Source of the DNA: a virus
Virus record (IMG/VR): IMGVR_UViG_3300045538_000090
Location: 1 to 35,214 of that record
Reading direction: 5' to 3' (one strand)
DNA: 35,214 bases
The translations under genes and the position numbers were made by a program. Positions 1 through 35,214 of the stretch are shown piece after piece; the stretch's first letter is position 1, and every line of letters begins with the position of its first letter. The notes under the pieces are model-generated. The model had not been told where the DNA came from and ran no database searches. It worked only from the letters and a program-made list of their open reading frames with translations.

Positions 1-83
1 ACGTACTTTAAAAGGCTGTCAATCGTTCTTTCTAATGTGTGTTCCCGTCCTTTATGGGTTGCTATTCCTACGATAATACGCAT
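1..83 (-). CDS. Glycosyltransferase, 5' fragment cut by the window edge
   Basis: The minus strand from 83 encodes the first 27 residues of a protein starting MRIIVGIATHKGREHTLER, identical to the N-terminus of the complete glycosyltransferase at 33939-34580. Its ATG overlaps the 3' end of the FkbM gene at 68-619 by 16 bases, exactly as in the right-hand copy. The rest lies outside the window. It may be a second complete gene, or the same gene reached from a variant upstream cassette. Confidence 0.8.
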   Translation of the reverse strand, partial: MRIIVGIATHKGREHTLERTIDSLLKY

Positions 84-99
84 ATCATATCAAATTTAA
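1..99. repeat. 99-bp exact direct repeat, left copy
   Basis: Every base is identical to 34498-34596. It covers the start of a glycosyltransferase gene and the last codons of the FkbM methyltransferase gene. Immediately beyond it (position 100 against 34597) the copies begin to differ. The window starts exactly at the repeat edge, and 99 is also a common assembler k-mer length, so an assembly-graph branch point is a real alternative to a biological duplication. Confidence 0.95.
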
Positions 100-619
100 C
101 TTGTGAACACTTGTAACCTATTGCTTCTAATCGCTTAACCACCGCTTTAATATCTTCGGAGTTGCTTAATACGTTACTTTCAAACTGAATTATCTTTGGT
201 TTTATAGTACAAGTATCTAAAAAGTCATTTAAGATTACACAATCGTGACCTTCGGTATCTATCTTTAGTAGTTCAATGTCTGTTATGTTATGCTTATCGA
301 ATAGCGTTTTGATTCTTACAACTGGAACGCTGTCAATTTCTACATGACCAAGCCAACCCATCTCGACAATGGTTTTATGTGGCTCGTTAATTGAGTTGCA
401 ACCACGAAGCCAATCGGGAAGTCCTAACGACTTAATCTTTTCAGAAGGTATGTAGTAAATATCTACACTACCCTCATTATTACTTACCGCTACATTCTCT
501 TTAAGGCACTTCGGTAATCTATCGTAATACTCTTTTATAGGCTCAACAAATAAACCGCTCTTCTTTCCCGCCTCCGTTCTAAAGTCGGACGTTCCTATCT
601 CTACTATTTCTACTTTCAT
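68..619 (-). CDS. FkbM-family methyltransferase, left copy (a)
   Basis: A 183-residue SAM-dependent methyltransferase of the FkbM type. Such enzymes usually O-methylate sugars in polysaccharides or glycosylated products. An ELLKIDTEGHD motif near residues 117-127 is the FkbM-family signature, and a conserved pocket-like segment VEIGTSDFRTEAG lies at residues 6-18. The length is short for the family, whose members commonly exceed 200 residues, so it may be a reduced phage version. It sits between two glycosyltransferase genes, which suggests modification of a sugar on the host surface, virion or phage DNA; which one cannot be told. It is closely related to 34565-35116: both ends and residues around 117-140 are almost identical while residues 47-107 and 148-172 differ strongly, so the gene looks mosaic. 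Family confidence is good; the substrate is unknown. Confidence 0.8.
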   Translation of the reverse strand: MKVEIVEIGTSDFRTEAGKKSGLFVEPIKEYYDRLPKCLKENVAVSNNEGSVDIYYIPSEKIKSLGLPDWLRGCNSINEPHKTIVEMGWLGHVEIDSVPVVRIKTLFDKHNITDIELLKIDTEGHDCVILNDFLDTCTIKPKIIQFESNVLSNSEDIKAVVKRLEAIGYKCSQVKFDMICVLS

Positions 620-626
620 TTGCTTA

Positions 627-1103
627 TTAAAGTTTATTTAATGCATCTGTATATGCTTTGTACGCAGACAATTCACAATTAAACCTACCTAAGAATATTC
701 TTTTGTTTCCAATCCTTATGCTGCTCTTCCATTTACATCTTCTACTATCCCAACTAACTCCAACATATTTAGATTTGCCACCAACAGCCCTTGAAACATT
801 AAATCTGTTAGTGGTTAATCTTAAGTTGTCTGGGGCATTGTTAAATGTGTCGCCATCAATATGATCAACTACGATATTAAATCCATCTATTTTGTGACCT
901 AAAAAAGCCATAGCTACTAATTGATGTACCTTATATCTGGTTACAATTCCATTAACACAAAACCTAACCTCCTTATATTTATTTCTAACACCAGTTAAAG
1001 ATGGCGACATGAGTCTATTGTTTTTAATAGTAAATACATTGCCTAAGTTGCTCACCATATAATGTCCTTTATATCCAGGCACATCTTCCCAAATCTCGTT
1101 CAT
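627..1103 (-). CDS. NUMOD4-HNH-AP2 homing endonuclease
   Basis: A 158-residue free-standing homing endonuclease. The N-terminus (EIWEDVPGYKGHYMVSNLG, residues 3-21) is a NUMOD4 domain. The HNH core lies around residues 79-97 (VDHIDGDTFNNAPDNLRL). The C-terminus from about 112 (KYVGVSWDSRRCKWKSSI, then FLGRF) is an AP2-like DNA-binding domain. Such enzymes cut one DNA site and spread their own gene by repair from the cut. The gene sits between a glycosyltransferase (1108-1749) and an FkbM methyltransferase (68-619). In the other copy of that cassette these two genes overlap directly and the endonuclease is absent, so it is a recent insertion. A TATTAA hexamer occurs at each side (625-630 and 1120-1125) but only once in the empty copy (35122-35127). 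Confidence 0.92.
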   Translation of the reverse strand: MNEIWEDVPGYKGHYMVSNLGNVFTIKNNRLMSPSLTGVRNKYKEVRFCVNGIVTRYKVHQLVAMAFLGHKIDGFNIVVDHIDGDTFNNAPDNLRLTTNRFNVSRAVGGKSKYVGVSWDSRRCKWKSSIRIGNKRIFLGRFNCELSAYKAYTDALNKL

Positions 1104-3080: not shown

Positions 3081-3754
3081 TCTTCTAATTCGTCAAATAT
3101 TGATACTTGGTTTACATTCTTCTTTTTAATTATCCCTAAAGCTGTTTCAAAGATAGTTCTTCCCGCTTCATAGTCTACCAGGTTACGCGCCATTTTATCT
3201 AATCTCTGTTCGCCTTTGTATTTAGTAAAATCATAATCGTGAAATTTAGATAATTCAGAAACTTTTGAATGTATAAAATTACTTGCGTTCCTTTCTCCTA
3301 AATCATTTGGTAAATTAAAGTTAGTCCAATATAAATGCCTACCTCTTTTTTGGGCTTGTATTAATGGTTCATAATATGGTATTACATTCTCAACACAATA
3401 TTTACCATTGAAAAAATGTTCTAATAGTATTATTTCTTCATAAAGCATCATGTTTGGATAGGTTGCTTTCGACTTTCTTTCACCTTCACCAGTATTTGAT
3501 ATTCTCATTCTTGAATGTGTCGGACAAGGTGGTGAACTCCATATAAAATCAAATTCTTTGTAGTGGTCAAGTAAGTATTGATGTGCATCAGCGACTACCA
3601 CTATGTCATTCGTAAATCTTTCCTGGTATAATCTCGCAGCTTCAGGATCTAATTCAATAGCAGTAACTTCTATTTCTATTCCTGCTTCTTTTGCTACTTC
3701 GTCCCACTTGTATCTGTTGCCGCCTAGACAAGCGTATAAATTTAGTATCTTCAT
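3077..3754 (-). CDS. DNA (cytosine-5) methyltransferase, compact
   Basis: A 225-residue C5-cytosine methyltransferase. The start MKILNLYACLGGNRYKW is the SAM-binding motif I region (atypical, with LYACLGG). IELDPEAARLYQERF is motif II-like. SPPCPTHS at about residues 74-81 holds the catalytic cysteine, and VENVIPYY at about 121-128 is the ENV motif. It is short for the family (often above 300 residues), with little room for a target-recognition domain; RGRHLYWTNF matches motif VIII-like sequence. It probably methylates phage DNA to evade host restriction. No partner endonuclease lies next to it, so it is likely an orphan enzyme. It overlaps the genes on both sides by 4 bases. Confidence 0.88.
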   Translation of the reverse strand: MKILNLYACLGGNRYKWDEVAKEAGIEIEVTAIELDPEAARLYQERFTNDIVVVADAHQYLLDHYKEFDFIWSSPPCPTHSRMRISNTGEGERKSKATYPNMMLYEEIILLEHFFNGKYCVENVIPYYEPLIQAQKRGRHLYWTNFNLPNDLGERNASNFIHSKVSELSKFHDYDFTKYKGEQRLDKMARNLVDYEAGRTIFETALGIIKKKNVNQVSIFDELEE

Positions 3755-4017
3755 ATCTCTACCTCCTTTTGTTGTAAATCTAATAACATTTTCCTTAATT
3801 CCATGTTAGTCAAGTTCAATCTTGAATTAATCTTGTATTCTAACTCGATTTCCTCTTGAAGCTCATTTATCAAACGTAACGCATTATTTATAGCTTCGGC
3901 ATCCGTAAGTATTACTCTCTTCTTTTCATCGCTTACGTCGCTTAATTTAGCCCTAAAAAGCAAATGGTTGAGTGCAATGTTTAAGTCAAGACGGCAATTT
4001 ATTATTTTTAGGTTCAT
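3751..4017 (-). CDS. Small coiled-coil protein, unknown function
   Basis: Starting at the ATG at 4017 gives 88 residues. A longer frame from TTG at 4050 would run into the folded site at 4035-4086, so it is rejected. The sequence MNLKIINCRLDLNIALNHLL is followed by a charged helical part (LINELQEEIELEYKINSRLN ... MLLDLQQKEVEI), likely a coiled coil. It lies upstream of, and overlaps by 4 bases, the cytosine methyltransferase. No family recognised. Confidence 0.65.
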   Translation of the reverse strand: MNLKIINCRLDLNIALNHLLFRAKLSDVSDEKKRVILTDAEAINNALRLINELQEEIELEYKINSRLNLTNMELRKMLLDLQQKEVEI

Positions 4018-4034
4018 GTTATAGTGTTTTAAAT

Positions 4035-4086
4035 TTCTAACAAAGTGCAAGTGGCATTGAAACGACCACCTGCACGACAGTTAGCG
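4035..4086 (-). other. attC-like folded site A after the gene at 4088-4324
   Basis: On the minus strand the site reads CGCTAAC, a 4-base spacer, the stem arm GTGCAGGTGG, an 11-base loop TCGTTTCAATG, the arm CCACTTGCAC, TTT, then GTTAGAA. The outer CTAAC and GTTAG boxes pair and resemble the R'' and R' boxes of integron attC sites. The long inner stem has one mismatch in DNA (a G-U pair in RNA). It begins 1 base after a stop codon, the usual position of attC. An ordinary transcription terminator with a weak T-run is the main alternative. Confidence 0.45.
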
Positions 4087-4087
4087 G

Positions 4088-4324
4088 TCAGTTTGTTGAA
4101 TTGCAAAAACAAGTATCGCAATAGCCATCAAATTCAGCTTTATCTTTACACCATTCTGATTTACAAACCGAACCGCTAACAGTAGGTTGGTGCAATTTAC
4201 TACGTTCCTCCCACTCATCTAAGTATATTTTTAAACTTTCTGTTGCTATTGCAAAATCTCCAACTATCTCATGCAGTTGTATTTTTCTTCTAATACACTT
4301 TAATAAATCATCATATATTTCCAT
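4088..4324 (-). CDS. Small Cys-rich (zinc-ribbon-like) protein
   Basis: A 78-residue protein with a helical N-terminal part (MEIYDDLLKCIRRKIQLHEI) and a C-terminal cysteine cluster, VCKSEWCKDKAEFDGYCDTC then FC, that could bind one zinc ion. No family recognised. It is flanked by the 43-base gap at 4325-4367 and by folded site A, whose outer box begins 1 base after the TGA stop. Function unknown; a small DNA- or protein-binding factor is possible. Confidence 0.65.
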   Translation of the reverse strand: MEIYDDLLKCIRRKIQLHEIVGDFAIATESLKIYLDEWEERSKLHQPTVSGSVCKSEWCKDKAEFDGYCDTCFCNSTN

Positions 4325-4367
4325 AATCTTTCTTTTTAATCCGTAAACTTCACCAACCTACCTGACG

Positions 4368-4649
4368 TTATGCTCTATTAATTTTCCAACGCTCAAATTT
4401 TCTAATAGCGTTCTTATCATTAATGGCAATACATTTAAAAACCGTTTCATCCTTTCTCATTCTTTCAGTAGAAAATTCCCCTTGCTCATTAAAGAAATAT
4501 TCTTTCGAGCCTGTTGGAACGTAAGGTCGTTTTTCTTTTTCAATATAAACTCTTTTTTCTCTTGGGTCTGCAAATAAATCATTACCAATACCACTCATTG
4601 ATGCCGCAATAGCATACATTCCTAATAATCCGTTTAAGTTCTTTCTCAT
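4368..4649 (-). CDS. Small protein of unknown function between folded sites
   Basis: A 93-residue protein starting MRKNLNGLLGMYAIAASMSG, a slightly hydrophobic, small-residue N-terminus, followed by a charged region (REKRVYIEKEKRPYVPTGS) and a basic C-terminus FERWKINRA. No family recognised. Upstream is folded site B, which begins at the stop of the helicase gene. Downstream, its TAA lies within a GCATAAC box like those at sites B and D, but no long stem follows. With 4088-4324 it forms a two-gene unit bounded by sites A and B. Confidence 0.6.
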   Translation of the reverse strand: MRKNLNGLLGMYAIAASMSGIGNDLFADPREKRVYIEKEKRPYVPTGSKEYFFNEQGEFSTERMRKDETVFKCIAINDKNAIRKFERWKINRA

Positions 4650-4675
4650 AACATTTCTTTAATTAAATTAACAAA

Positions 4676-4731
4676 GCATAACAGCAACTCAACCGCCATT
4701 AAAACGTGCGGTTAGTTGCCGACCGTTAAAA
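4676..4731 (-). other. attC-like folded site B at the 3' end of the helicase gene
   Basis: On the minus strand the site reads TTTTAAC (its TAA is the helicase stop), GGTC, the arm GCAACTAACCGC, an 11-base loop ACGTTTTAATG, the arm GCGGTTGAGTTGC, T, then GTTATGC. The arms pair over 12 bases with one unpaired G, like the extrahelical bases of attC sites. The TAAC and GTTA outer boxes also pair. There is no T-run directly after the stem, which argues against a simple terminator. Confidence 0.5.
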
Positions 4732-5628
4732 GTCTTTATTAGGTGCTAAGTTATTAAATATTTCGGATTGTTTACTATCATGTAATGGATTTTTACCGTT
4801 GCAACTGAATCCACTGCCTCCCTCAAGTTTAAATAGTATTGGTTCACCCATTAGCGTAGGGCTTCCTCCCGTTTCAGTTTCCTTTACCTTCTTAACGTGT
4901 ATATGAGTGTACATCCAATTAAACTTATCCGCAACGTAACGATGTATTACAATGAAATCATCGGCTCTATTTCCCCATTTACCGCCTCCTTCTGCGTCTG
5001 CCATGCTTGGAGGCATAGGGTGTCCTTCAAACTCACCATCTCTATGTGTTTTCCTTAGTGCTTCCGTTGCTGCATGAATACAAAGGTAGATACTTGTTTT
5101 CGTTTGTTTACAGAATAACCGTAGTTTGGTAGCCATTTCGTAATCGTAATCATGAGCGTTACTTCCTTTAGGTCTTAGAAACGAGTTGTGAGGATCAATC
5201 ATTAACGTATCGTATCTTCCTGCTTTCTGTACTTCCTGCATAAACAACTCAATAGTCCACGCTTTTTGGGTATCTATGAAATCAAAGTGATTCTCAATAA
5301 ACAACTTTGCATCTTCCAACTCTTGAGTGGTGAATTGATTTACTTTCTTACCTACATACAACTCCAATAGATTACGTTTGATTCCGTTAACGGTATTCTC
5401 TGCTGAGTAGATTAGGTGTTTATGGTCGTGCTTCGCACTTAAACAAAGAAGATAAAACAATAGCCAGTAAGTCTTACCAACGTTAGCGTGTCCAAGAATG
5501 ATATTAAACGAACCCTTTTTAAATCTTAGGTGGTTATCTAAGTCGCAACCGATAGCCAAACCCAAAGGAACACGGTTGGTTCTTAGTAGTTCAAGGAACT
5601 CATCTTGATCTCTATGGTTAACTATCAT
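4726..5628 (-). CDS. RecA-fold replicative helicase (DnaB/RepA-like)
   Basis: A 300-residue ATPase that probably unwinds DNA at the phage replication fork. Walker A is GHANVGKT at about residues 46-53. Walker B is DTLMIDPHN at about residues 139-147. A sensor-type histidine segment IYLCIHAATEALRKT follows near 179-193, and a GGGKWGNRADDFIVI block near 214-228 resembles the DnaB/KaiC-type C-terminal motif. There is no DnaB N-terminal primase-interaction domain, so it is a single-domain form. Its ATG overlaps the stop of the replication-organizer gene by 4 bases; that pairing of initiator and helicase is usual for phage replication modules. The stop lies inside folded site B. Confidence 0.85.
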   Translation of the reverse strand: MIVNHRDQDEFLELLRTNRVPLGLAIGCDLDNHLRFKKGSFNIILGHANVGKTYWLLFYLLCLSAKHDHKHLIYSAENTVNGIKRNLLELYVGKKVNQFTTQELEDAKLFIENHFDFIDTQKAWTIELFMQEVQKAGRYDTLMIDPHNSFLRPKGSNAHDYDYEMATKLRLFCKQTKTSIYLCIHAATEALRKTHRDGEFEGHPMPPSMADAEGGGKWGNRADDFIVIHRYVADKFNWMYTHIHVKKVKETETGGSPTLMGEPILFKLEGGSGFSCNGKNPLHDSKQSEIFNNLAPNKDF

Positions 5629-13300: not shown

Positions 13301-13352
13301 GTCTAACGCAGAGGTTAGCGATGGCTTCAGTCTCGCTAATCGAACGTTATGC
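13301..13352. other. attC-like folded site D between the exonuclease and spanin genes
   Basis: On the plus strand the site reads GTCTAAC, a 7-base spacer, TTAGCGA, an 11-base loop TGGCTTCAGTC, TCGCTAA, a spacer, then GTTATGC. The TAACG and CGTTA outer boxes pair, and the inner 7-bp arms are a perfect inverted repeat. Read on the minus strand, the right box is GTTAGAC, which fits the integron core GTTRRRY exactly. This is the best attC-like match of the window, though the inner stem is short. Confidence 0.45.
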
Positions 13353-13371
13353 GCTCGTTTTAATGGCGCAT
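13349..13371. other. Conserved-loop hairpin next to site D
   Basis: ATGCGC, the loop TCGTTTTAATG and GCGCAT form a 6-bp perfect stem. The 11-base loop matches those of sites A (TCGTTTCAATG) and B (ACGTTTTAATG), but here it is on the plus strand. The stem sequences differ from each other, so the loop rather than the arms is conserved. It ends exactly at the spanin stop codon. Confidence 0.6.
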
Positions 13372-29480: not shown

Positions 29481-30077
29481 TTAAGATAAAGTTGTTCCTG
29501 TTACTGTGAATGTTCGGCAGGGTATGTATTGAGCTGTACTAGTTTTAGCTTGAAATGAATAGCCTAAGTAATTACCCCAATAAGCAAAACCTGCATTAGC
29601 TTCTATTGTTGAAGAACTCCATAAGTTATCACTTCCAGCTAGATTTAAATTTATTGGTGAATAGTTCAACAAAGGAAATGAACCAGAATTATTTAAGTTT
29701 GTCAATTCATGAATATTAGGCAATCTCCAACCTGTTGTAAATGTACCGATACTTACAGCAGCTGCACCATCAATAGCATTATCCCAAGTCACAAGTGAGC
29801 CATTTCTTGTCCGTCTATATCCTAATACTGTACTACCATCGTATGTACTCCAATCAATCACGATGTTATTAGTGTACGTTGTACCCCCTAATTCGTCTGT
29901 GAATCTATTAGTATTACCGAAAGGATTGTTTGAACCAAGTACAAAGAATGAAGTTGCTCTTCCTTTTTCCAAGTCGCCATCATCTCCCGTTCTGTACGAT
30001 GTAGTCTGCCCCGTCTTTAATAGTGTAGCACCAACGGAAGCAGCAGACCCCCGTACTATATGTCGCATCGTGTACAT
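29481..30077 (-). CDS. DUF1566-type lectin-like tail protein
   Basis: A 198-residue protein with a DUF1566 (Lcl C-terminal) domain. GWRLPNIHELTNLNN (about 112-126), then LWSSSTIEANAGFAYWGNYL (about 147-166), is the family signature. The N-terminus MYTMRHIVRGSAASVGATLL is a short attachment part. Such domains adopt a C-type-lectin-like fold in other proteins, so this may be a binding module at the tail tip. The gene lies among other tail genes, 2 bases after 30080-30349. Confidence 0.75.
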   Translation of the reverse strand: MYTMRHIVRGSAASVGATLLKTGQTTSYRTGDDGDLEKGRATSFFVLGSNNPFGNTNRFTDELGGTTYTNNIVIDWSTYDGSTVLGYRRTRNGSLVTWDNAIDGAAAVSIGTFTTGWRLPNIHELTNLNNSGSFPLLNYSPINLNLAGSDNLWSSSTIEANAGFAYWGNYLGYSFQAKTSTAQYIPCRTFTVTGTTLS

Positions 30078-30389: not shown

Positions 30390-31547
30390 TTAGAACGCGA
30401 TATACTGATCGTCGGTATAGTACATCTCTTTAATGTAGGTAGTCGCATATCGTATAGCATCCATTGCATCGTCGTATAGTTTGATAGGTTCATCTAAGAT
30501 TGAATCCCCTACCTTCTTCCATTTGTAATTTTCGTATTCACGTTTTAATCGCGGGTCATCCATGCAATAAACACCAAACGTTTTAACGTTATCAATACCT
30601 TTCTTAACTACCTTGTTGGCGTTCGTTACGTTGTACCCCGCGTTTTGCATCTCGGCTATTATCTCAGGACGTGAGTAGTCAGCAAGTATATCAGCGTTCT
30701 TATCTATATCCAACCCGTTCATCTTCTCGATTAACATGGTGGTGGTTAGATAGGATTCATAAATGACTGGTTCGATGTATATATCTTTCTCATGCCAATA
30801 CACCCTAACTAAAGCGGTGGGGTGGTTATAACCAAAGTCAAGCCCGTAGATGTAATTCTGAAAGCGTGGCTCTCTATCCTTAACGAACGTCCAATTATTG
30901 TATATGTTACTCTTGCTTATTGCCCTCTCACCTAAAGCATAGATTTGATATAACGCCTCGTCTGTACGTTTCAAGTCCTCAATCTGTCGTTTGATTGACT
31001 CGGGTAGAAAGGGATTGTCTTTATAGGTAGATTTGATTACTACCTTATCCTCTTGCGGTAATTCATATAACCAGGATGCACTATCCGATGGGTTGTAGTC
31101 AAAGATTAGTTTACCCTCCGTCCTCATGTTCAACTGCTGAAAGTCTTCGAAGTATAATTCATTCGCCTCGTTGCACCAACCTAAATCCCTTTTACGCCCT
31201 CGTATCTTTTGCTCGTCATCCACACTAAAGAACTCCACTATTGATCCGTTAGGGAACTTGTAGATATTCTCACTCATGTTGTGACTTGCCTTATCGTAGA
31301 TTTCCAACTCCTTCATGATTTCTAAGAAGTCACGCATCACCGTAGCCCTCAAAGCGGGGAACGTCTTTCTAACGATACTCACCACCTTGTTAGGGTTCTG
31401 AATACAATAGACGATAATCAACTGACAAAGGCTGTACGTCTTACTTGAACGTGAGCCTCCCTCGTTAACGATGAATCTTGTAGGTGAGTTTAATGCCGTC
31501 CAATTACGTTCAAAGATGTTTGTACTATTTATCTCCAGTACTGCCAA
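30390..31547 (-). CDS. terL: Terminase large subunit
   Basis: A 385-residue packaging motor. FIVNEGGSRSSKTYSLCQLI (about 25-44) holds Walker A (GGSRSSKT). LGWCNEANELYFEDFQ (about 127-142) is Walker B with the catalytic glutamate. YIYGLDFGYNHPTALVRVYW (about 212-231) begins the RNase-H-like nuclease domain, and DNVKTFGVYCMDDPRLKREY and LYDDAMDAIRYATTYIKE complete it. The length is somewhat below the usual 400-550 residues. It overlaps the small subunit gene by 23 bases. Confidence 0.93.
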   Translation of the reverse strand: MAVLEINSTNIFERNWTALNSPTRFIVNEGGSRSSKTYSLCQLIIVYCIQNPNKVVSIVRKTFPALRATVMRDFLEIMKELEIYDKASHNMSENIYKFPNGSIVEFFSVDDEQKIRGRKRDLGWCNEANELYFEDFQQLNMRTEGKLIFDYNPSDSASWLYELPQEDKVVIKSTYKDNPFLPESIKRQIEDLKRTDEALYQIYALGERAISKSNIYNNWTFVKDREPRFQNYIYGLDFGYNHPTALVRVYWHEKDIYIEPVIYESYLTTTMLIEKMNGLDIDKNADILADYSRPEIIAEMQNAGYNVTNANKVVKKGIDNVKTFGVYCMDDPRLKREYENYKWKKVGDSILDEPIKLYDDAMDAIRYATTYIKEMYYTDDQYIAF

Positions 31548-31941: not shown

Positions 31942-32410
31942 TTTCTTTCATTATTATCGAATCTGAAATATAGAACAAATCCAAAGTGCTTACTAATGTT
32001 ATAACATCTTTTCGTTCATTCCTATTGTATAGTTTGTTTATAGTTGGGTATTTCACCCATTCTTTTGTCGTATATTCTTTTATGTATTCTTGTAGCGTTT
32101 CTTTCTTAACGATTACCCAATACTTTATAGTTTCAAATGCAAAGTAGTCAGCGTTGCCATATAACCAACCAAGGTGACCAGTTATTCCTTTAATCTCAAT
32201 CCAATGTATATTCTCATTCACTGAATCGTCTGATCGTTTAACTTTCTTCAAGCCTTTAACATCTATTTTAACATTACCTATCTTGACATCCCAATGCTCA
32301 ATCATGTCTTGGCTCTTATTTGATAGCGTATACTTTCCAAATAAATCAGCGAACAAGGTTTCTTTTTCCTTACCCTCTTTCAGATATGATTCAAGGTCTT
32401 TAAATCCCAT
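31928..32410 (-). CDS. PD-(D/E)XK-type endonuclease, resolvase-like
   Basis: A 160-residue protein with a restriction-endonuclease-type core. EHWDVKIGNVKIDVKGLKKV (about 38-57) gives D-x(n)-D-V-K, and HWIEIKGITGHLGWLYGNAD (about 69-88) a second E-x-K. YFAFETIKYWVIVKKETLQE is the following beta-alpha element. Such small nucleases resolve branched DNA or cut at packaging sites. It lies directly before the terminase genes, so it may clear branched DNA before packaging. The active-site assignment is from motif spacing alone. Confidence 0.6.
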   Translation of the reverse strand: MGFKDLESYLKEGKEKETLFADLFGKYTLSNKSQDMIEHWDVKIGNVKIDVKGLKKVKRSDDSVNENIHWIEIKGITGHLGWLYGNADYFAFETIKYWVIVKKETLQEYIKEYTTKEWVKYPTINKLYNRNERKDVITLVSTLDLFYISDSIIMKENGKA

Positions 32411-33938: not shown

Positions 33939-34580
33939 TTAATACAAACCACTTTTTATTTTAAAAATTTCATTAGCCAACTCAATTTGTCGATGCTCTT
34001 TCCTTACTTCACGCCCGTAAATCGTTTGCTCAAGTGGTATCGGTTGCTGAATTATCCAATCTCCCGCGTGTCCTAAGTGTGTTATATTAATCCCTTGCCT
34101 TGCGGCTTCAAGACTGAATACCAAATCACTCATTAACTTATCTTCTGCTTTCCAAATCTCTGTGGGGTTGAATTTCGATGTGTCCCAAGCTGAAACGCCC
34201 GTTCCTGCAACGTCAATCTGTAAAGTCTGCGGGTAGTTTCTCAAACAAGCGAAGGCTTTATGCCCCTTGTAGTAACTTCTATTCAATCCTTGCAGCTTTC
34301 TACCGTGGAATGTGCAGATAGTTCCGTGTTTTTCTATGCCGTTTAGTAGGGTATCTATGTAATCAGGAGGGTAAATCAAATCGTCATCGGCTGATACCGC
34401 GTATATCGGCTTTTGGTATTTATGTAAGAAGTGAAACTTACCGTTATCCGTTGCGTTATACGGCTCTTTCTCGTTGTCGTATACATGAATGTCATCAACG
34501 TACTTTAAAAGGCTGTCAATCGTTCTTTCTAATGTGTGTTCCCGTCCTTTATGGGTTGCTATTCCTACGATAATACGCAT
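33939..34580 (-). CDS. Glycosyltransferase (GT-A, DDD motif)
   Basis: A 213-residue protein starting MRIIVGIATHKGREHTLERT. AVSADDDLIYPPDYIDTL (about 61-78) holds the D-D-D metal-binding motif of GT-A enzymes. HGRKLQGLNRSYYKGHKAFA lies mid-protein. WKAEDKLMSDLVFSLEAARQ (about 143-162) is a conserved acceptor region with ED. It probably transfers a sugar and works with the FkbM methyltransferase whose end it overlaps by 16 bases. Targets (host surface polysaccharide, tail glycan or DNA) are unknown. Its first 83 bases are identical to window positions 1-83. Confidence 0.8.
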   Translation of the reverse strand: MRIIVGIATHKGREHTLERTIDSLLKYVDDIHVYDNEKEPYNATDNGKFHFLHKYQKPIYAVSADDDLIYPPDYIDTLLNGIEKHGTICTFHGRKLQGLNRSYYKGHKAFACLRNYPQTLQIDVAGTGVSAWDTSKFNPTEIWKAEDKLMSDLVFSLEAARQGINITHLGHAGDWIIQQPIPLEQTIYGREVRKEHRQIELANEIFKIKSGLY

Positions 34581-34596
34581 ATCATATCAAATTTAA
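34498..34596. repeat. 99-bp exact direct repeat, right copy
   Basis: Identical to 1-99. It spans the start of the glycosyltransferase gene at 33939-34580 and the last codons of the FkbM gene at 34565-35116. Upstream of it (34497 and lower) the sequence is unique in this window, because the left copy is cut at position 1. Confidence 0.95.
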
Positions 34597-35116
34597 TCTG
34601 TTGTGTTGTATATCCTACTTCGTGAAGTCGTTCACATAGCCTTATAACCTCTTCTTGGTCGCTTAATGAGTTGTTTTCAAACTGAATAGTCTTTGGTCTT
34701 ATAGTGCAAGTATCTAAAAAGTCATTTAAGATTACGCAGTCATGCCCCTCGGTGTCTATTTTAAGTAGTTCAATGTCTGTTATATCATGCTTGAGTAGTA
34801 AATCTTTTATCCTAACCACCTCAACAGTATTCTTTACAACGTGTTTACTGAATCCCATGCTTAGTATTGTAGGGTGAATGTGATTAACAGAGTTACAACC
34901 CCTCAACCAGTTAGGTAAACCAAGCCCCTCGATTCTTGAAGATGGAATGTAATAGATATCTATCTCGCCATTGTAATTACTCACCGCCACATTCTCTTTT
35001 AGGCACTTCGGTAATCTATCGTAATACTCTTTTATAGGCTCAACGAATAAACCTATCTTATTTCCCGCCTCAGTTCTAAAGTCGGACGTTCCTATCTCTA
35101 CTATTTCTACTTTCAT
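34565..35116 (-). CDS. FkbM-family methyltransferase, right copy (b)
   Basis: A 183-residue protein, the same length as the copy at 68-619. The first 46 residues are nearly identical, as are the segments ELLKIDTEGHD (residues 117-127) and VILNDFLDTCTI and the end FDMICVLS. In between, the residues at 47-107 and 148-172 differ strongly (for example NYNGEIDIYYIPSSRIEGLG against NNEGSVDIYYIPSEKIKSLG), so the gene is a mosaic of its partner. The FkbM fold and probable sugar methylation role are the same. It directly follows the glycosyltransferase fragment at 35113-35214 with a 4-base overlap and no HNH gene. Confidence 0.8.
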   Translation of the reverse strand: MKVEIVEIGTSDFRTEAGNKIGLFVEPIKEYYDRLPKCLKENVAVSNYNGEIDIYYIPSSRIEGLGLPNWLRGCNSVNHIHPTILSMGFSKHVVKNTVEVVRIKDLLLKHDITDIELLKIDTEGHDCVILNDFLDTCTIRPKTIQFENNSLSDQEEVIRLCERLHEVGYTTQQIKFDMICVLS

Positions 35117-35214
35117 TTGCTTATTAATGGGTTTGTCTTTCTTTCTTCTCCGTGCATAACGCTTTCATGGTCACCGTGAAACGCAAGAGACTTGTGGGGC
35201 ATATACATTTTAAC
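35113..35214 (-). CDS. Glycosyltransferase 3' fragment, right copy
   Basis: The last 33 residues of a gene whose 5' part lies outside the window: VKMYMPHKSLAFHGDHESVM then HGEERKTNPLISK. It matches the end of the complete gene at 1108-1749 (VKMYMPHKSLAIHGDHPSVM then HHNERLSNPLISKH). The TGA stop overlaps the ATG of the FkbM gene (ATGA). This shows the original, uninterrupted order of the two genes. Confidence 0.85.
   Translation of the reverse strand, partial: VKMYMPHKSLAFHGDHESVMHGEERKTNPLISK

Follow-up and report, generated by a model that had tools for sequence, protein, structure and literature searches.

Integron-type sites in a phage genome: a probable integrase-less cassette array behind the stop codon of a replicative helicase gene

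Features of the helicase locus

The window, by which we mean the whole stretch of viral DNA analysed (35,214 nucleotides), carries a replicative helicase gene on its minus strand, followed by a short segment that a near-identical relative, L002, does not have. The features of this segment and of its surroundings are listed below.

3751-4017, minus: next phage gene, 88 aa; directly after the helicase in empty relatives
4019-4725, plus: whole insertion, 707 bp, between G4018 and T4726; not in L002
4019-4080, minus: unit c-A, 62 bp, an attC without a gene; own ends mismatch beyond TAAC; parallels the gene-less attC of L033 and L228
4035-4086, minus: site A, attC-type, loop CGTTTCAATG; held-out model R2, 42.6 bits, E 2.3e-6
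4081-4367, minus: cassette c-D, 287 bp, site D with the 78-aa ORF; matching ends TTAGCGGT / ACCGCTAA
4088-4324, minus: 78-aa ORF; passes through site D; without family match
4174-4374 (about), minus: site D, third attC-like site, loop of 142 nt; inverted repeat I9; ends match both neighbouring sites
4368-4649, minus: 93-aa ORF; weak 17-residue match to phrog_37413 only; function not assigned
4368-4725, minus: cassette c-B, 358 bp, site B with the 93-aa ORF; matching ends TTATGC / GCATAA
4676-4731, minus: site B, attC-type; held-out model R2, 44.4 bits, E 9e-7 over 233 kb; fold z -3.4
4726-5628, minus: DnaB/RecA-like replicative helicase gene; PF13481 8e-8, phrog_18375 3e-31
13349-13371, plus (opposite to the genes): isolated mini-hairpin ATGCGC-T-CGTTTTAATG-GCGCAT; R2 21.1 bits, E 0.12, model positions 17-39 only

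Site B is listed on the strand that reads CGTTTTAATG, which is the attC bottom strand. The TAA stop of the helicase gene (4726-4728, minus strand) forms the TAAC insertion point and overlaps the TAAC box of site B. Protein searches with both small ORFs returned no viral relatives and no Pfam families, and a BLAST search of the region against phages had the neighbouring methyltransferase gene as its sole match. The original prediction had placed two small genes between sites A and B; the 78-aa ORF, which runs through site D, is less certain, and its status as a gene is doubtful. Two copies of an FkbM-like methyltransferase gene lie 34.5 kb apart in the window (1-630 and 34498-35127); their identity is 98% in the first 104 bases and falls to 75-82% beyond, and they represent either a duplicated gene or end redundancy.

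Folding of the sites

Folding recovered at 4676-4731 the structure that had been predicted there, a stem of 12 bp that leaves one base extrahelical and carries a loop of 11 bases, with TAAC and GTTA as the closing boxes. The minus-strand fold (-11.8 kcal/mol, z -3.4) was equalled in none of 200 shuffles, and the plus-strand fold was weaker (-10.7, z -2.85). Local DNA folding placed site B among the top three single-strand hairpins of the 35-kb window, together with the 13.35 kb fragment and one other, and ranked site A fourth. The two sites had been described as nearly alike in loop and different in stem, and their minus-strand loops are indeed CGTTTTAATG in B and CGTTTCAATG in A. The boxes of site B are TTTTAAC and GTTATGC, the latter being its R' box and the family majority; the AAC/GTT cores fit RYYYAAC ... 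GTTRRRY, but the full heptamers do so only partly. The absence of the T-run of an intrinsic terminator was also borne out, as the minus strand continues after site B with GTTATGCTTTGTTAATT, and an Rfam search matched no family.

The third site, D, has arms of 19 nt (4343-4361 and 4182-4200); the window has no second inverted pair of this kind within 250 nt. The boxes of D are GCATAAC and GTTAGCG. Its TAAC contains the TAA stop of the 93-aa gene, as the TAAC of B contains the helicase stop. GTTATGC of site B pairs with GCATAAC of D, and GTTAGCGGT of D pairs with ACCGCTAAC of A. A single clean unit running from A to B is ruled out by site D; because this third site is present, the interval resolves into two cassettes and a gene-less attC.

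The mini-hairpin at 13349-13371 matches the loop and stem of the family in part, and its loop is identical to that of B. A second mini-hairpin with the family loop was observed right after the right-hand box (GTTATGC; GTTGA in L039) in contigs L039, L046, L061, L085 and L137; one example, GCACCGTTTTAATGGTGC, resembles the isolated one of the window.

A family of sites conserved in structure

The family to which these sites belong has a common layout of an AAC box, a variable and covarying stem, the near-fixed loop CGTTTTAATG and a GTT box, and is present in dozens of phage contigs as well as in chromosomal cassette arrays of Bacteroidota. Scanning viral contigs for CGTTTYAATG-N6-16-GTTATGC gave 113 stretches, about half of which have a long stem, unrelated in sequence and preceded by AAC, the others being stemless; a stricter pattern gave 22 loci from genomes, nearly all of them Bacteroidota. 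A stem score of at least 6 was reached in 20 of 23 genome matches, which had been taken by pattern without any stem requirement, against a mean of 5.9 when arms were swapped between sites and 1.4 when they were shuffled. Across 44 dissimilar sites the spacing from loop to GTT is 13-14, while that from AAC to loop varies; 86% of cells are paired, and both sides have changed in 133 cells. The covariation score was 0.506 against 0.162 for shuffled data (0 of 500 shuffles), with slid structures reaching at most 0.162. Since these 44 sites had been chosen for having a stem, the unselected test on the 23 matches is the cleaner of the two. A fold without compensatory changes, together with relatives that always keep the genes, would have refuted the original prediction, and neither was seen.

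Our key statements rest on covariance model R2, which was built without sequences of the window or of L003; the site coordinates behind the counts came from an earlier model, R1 (effectively a sequence model), with the AAC/GTT boxes giving the positions. R2 matched the L003 site, the sites of Polaribacter phage P12002L and, in keeping with the proposal of an attC-like folded site, both B and A (bit scores above), and had no match in the empty relatives searched (L002, L006, L223, L224 and L226). What is expected of an attC, an imperfect hairpin with one or more extrahelical bases that is kept by structure rather than by sequence, is present here, and we conclude that site B is an attC-type integron site rather than a chance hairpin, although recombination data are lacking.

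In tandem arrays, comparison of the bases after GTT of one site with those before AAC of the next gave a mean of 6.1 matching bases over 36 neighbouring site pairs, against 4.2 in shuffled data (0 of 20,000 shuffles), and the complementarity was significant for phages and for bacteria separately. Matching segment ends are expected if each segment was once a circle closed at G^TT. The window array satisfies this expectation in that the ends of c-B and c-D match; those of c-A do not.

Empty and filled junctions in related phages

The relative L002, whose helicase is 97% identical, lacks exactly 4019-4725 and reads ...AAAGATTTTTAAC|ATGAACC...; when the two flanks of the insertion are put together at G4018^T4726, the product differs from this junction by about two substitutions in some 85 bp. 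On the plus strand the crossover lies at G^TTA, which in the sense direction is TAA^C at the helicase stop. The helicase runs directly into the next gene without an insertion in the more distant relatives L005-L008 and L243-L245, and L003 and L004 have one gene-less attC at the same helicase junction. The empty site nearest to the window is known from one metagenome contig only. Absence of the genes from close relatives had been proposed as a check, and L002 supplies it at the exact junction predicted, L003 and L004 keeping a lone site. The idea of a cassette-like unit between A and B holds insofar as the unit is absent in relatives, but has to be amended to three sites forming two cassettes and a gene-less attC; its proposed limits (4087-4675) were wrong, the crossover lying at the TAAC (helicase) side of B, with B and A also inside the insertion.

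A second locus, the NinG gene of L033, has relatives that are 94-98% identical. It is empty in seven contigs (L223-L227, L229 and L239), which end ...TATACCAAC|AAAAAAGCC. L033 and L222, which are one and the same contig, have an attC, a 109-aa gene and a gene-less attC. In L228 the first attC is a different one and the gene is for a 316-aa N6_N4 DNA methylase, while the gene-less attC is the same as in L033. Insertion or excision at G^TT is supported by comparison only, namely of L002 with the window and of L033 and L228 with L223-L229. The swap at the NinG locus is the strongest evidence, inferred from the comparison of contigs, that the units can move and that the gene-less attC may act as a docking site, and c-A of the window looks like the counterpart of that gene-less attC.

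Both junctions share TAAC, so slippage or end-joining could give the L002 product, and the window arrangement might be ancestral, L002 having arisen by deletion between TAAC repeats. However, several other relatives also lack the unit, and the L033 locus has seven empty contigs and two different fillings, so that we consider a deletion very unlikely.

We also observed one attC with a shared leader (GTTATGCGGAATGTAAAACC...AACAAGAAC-ATG) behind at least six different upstream sequences (contigs L027, L028, L036, L053, L054, L104 and L134), mostly before genes starting MKQTAVEW; L054 has a further attC inserted within a gene of this type.

Gene orientation and stop codons

An ORF on the attC top strand with the attC at its 3' end is the usual, not universal, arrangement of a cassette. 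The window and most phages depart from it by using the bottom strand: genes were on the CGTTTTAATG strand at 48 of 58 phage sites and on the other strand at 5, whereas at 41 bacterial sites they were on the CGTTTTAATG strand in 4 cases and opposite in 33. These counts include sites from related phages, which are not independent. The TAA of TAAC ends an ORF at 19 of 49 phage sites, as compared with 6.3% of other nearby TAACs (p 2e-10) and with 1 of 35 bacterial sites, from which we infer that insertions immediately after a stop codon have been favoured by selection.

The position of the hairpins between codirectional phage genes, and the overlap of the TAA stop with the box at those 19 sites, would also suit phage RNA elements (terminators or processing sites) that relatives had simply lost. 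This reading has to contend with the missing T-run after B, the lack of an Rfam match, the presence of different genes with different hairpins at one exact point, and bacterial arrays that carry the family on the strand antisense to the genes; we consider it scarcely tenable.

Bacterial arrays and the missing integrase

A tyrosine recombinase (PF00589) was absent from 19 of the 20 phage records searched, the window among them; integrases could have been missed, because most viral records are fragments. Since there is no PF00589 match in cis, the window array is a CALIN and not a complete integron, and since the phage encodes no integrase, mobilisation must, by inference, be in trans. The recombining enzyme must then come from the host or from a co-resident element; the host is probably a member of the Bacteroidota, which we infer only from relatives.

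On Bacteroidota chromosomes the sites lie in arrays with nearly all ORFs in the same direction and on the opposite strand, the usual integron arrangement. About 14 of 19 genomes with arrays have a tyrosine recombinase of 370-500 aa, which matches the two ends of the integron integrase model (TIGR02249) and leaves the stretch of about 183-237 unmatched. In Adhaeribacter and relatives a similar attI-like sequence, with TAG|TT or GAG|TT at its end, lies 3' of the recombinase gene, and attC cassettes come next; one single-contig chromosome with 11 weak same-strand matches over 12 kb shows this arrangement of recombinase and array. The recombinase was found in 12 of 13 genomes with R1 sites and in 4 of 10 without (sampled family; Fisher p 0.019). 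Canonical IntI was found in only 1 of 19 genomes (G012, L162), and no site was recognised beside it. The tyrosine recombinases of L163-L171, L184 and L201-L204, which lack an I2-like segment and have an additional domain at the N terminus, were seen beside attI-like sequences and attC arrays, many of them at contig ends with the array side outward.

IntegronFinder 2.0 reported just one complete integron within Bacteroidetes proper, in Salinibacter (PMC9024848), and the I2 helix is regarded as the step to single-strand recombination (PMC7790495). Open-access texts yielded no account of attC sites in Flavobacteriaceae, nor of I2-less integron integrases.

The IS200/IS605 and REP group also has hairpins with extrahelical bases and a fixed tetranucleotide junction, and makes no long target duplication. 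The insertion could accordingly be pictured as a transposon-like unit with hairpin ends, moved by a single-strand transposase of that group, and the similarity of hairpins and junctions speaks for it. Such elements should have identical end hairpins in each copy together with TnpA, an expectation that fails on the stems alone, which differ at every site while the boxes and the loop are kept; against it stands also that the sites are strung in tandem into long arrays, with matching ends and one ORF or a few for each site, and that these arrays lie next to a tyrosine recombinase. We regard a transposon of this kind as extremely improbable.

Interpretation

We are highly confident that B, D and A are attC sites and that 4019-4725 is a small integrase-less cassette array (CALIN) at the stop codon of a phage replication gene, recombination being inferred. 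On the plus strand (attC top) the order is target CATG, gene-less attC A, the D cassette, the B cassette and TTAAAA, with all joins at G|TT. Site A is probably a resident gene-less attC. A lone attC would have entered the phage first, at a TAA^C stop, and may then have served as a docking site that took up circular cassettes through attC x attC recombination, presumably catalysed in trans by a Bacteroidota host integron integrase acting on folded single-stranded attC DNA. Landing right behind a stop codon would do little damage, and codirectional small genes, including DNA methyltransferases, could ride in the phage operon. Several points weigh against the integron reading: no recombination has been seen for the window sites, the own ends of c-A are unmatched, the loop of D is unusually long (142 nt), and the genes are inverted with respect to attC relative to bacterial cassettes.

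Because relatives lack the units, and because one exact spot is either empty or holds different genes, we conclude that phages take part in integron gene exchange. These loci provide before-and-after pictures from nature of how integron cassettes enter, stack and are swapped in phage genomes, and a cassette with a DNA methyltransferase gene might enable a phage to evade host restriction. They also point to a Bacteroidota type of integron that I2-dependent tools would report only as orphan attC clusters. More tentatively, and with the balance somewhat against it, Bacteroidota and their phages may share an integron lineage whose recombinase recombines folded attC sites without I2, the near-fixed loop CGTTTTAATG assuming part of the recognition, and in which lone attC sites on successive TAA^C stops make cassettes of phage genes and a cassette source of phage operons. 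Since phage genes already sit between attC sites at stop codons, the question of cassette origin is now testable.

Comparison with known systems

CALINs in lytic phages have already been described by Qi et al. 2023 (PMC9892861), where IntI1 recombined attC sites from three phages. Polaribacter phage P12002L is one of the three; in E. coli, IntI1 recombined the attC2 of this phage into attI1 (PMC9892861). P12002L carries the family reported here at 30005-30059 and 30906-30958 (54 and 42 bits), and the phage attC is for this reason of a known kind. Its CALIN resembles the window in consisting of attC clusters without an integrase in a Bacteroidota phage, and resembles the phage loci studied here in its DNA methyltransferase cargo. 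Further probable attC sites were noticed in P12002L (L200) at 32220-32284, 38032-38093 and 38876-38939, beside methyltransferase and Mom-like genes. Two sites of the family, one clear (40 bits) and one weak (25 bits), were noticed in an early-gene region of Cellulophaga phage phi19:1 (L199) at 1875-1925 and 3983-4031.

The arrays of Qi et al. are reported as static, whereas among ours exactly defined junctions occur both empty and filled, a gene-less attC is resident, and one cargo is replaced by another; unlike that study (PMC9892861), we also show inverted gene orientation across many phages. The chromosomal integrons of Bacteroidota (sedentary arrays) share with the phage sites the hairpin family, the G^TT junctions and the matching cassette ends, but differ from them in having genes on the attC top strand. 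Their enzymes match both ends of the canonical IntI model (TIGR02249), from which they differ in the unmatched segment at about 183-237, around the IntI-specific I2 insertion, in an added N-terminal domain of about 90 aa and in the position of the array 3' of the gene. What is apparently new here is the natural series of occupancy states, the inverted orientation in phages and the Bacteroidota integrase without the I2 segment.
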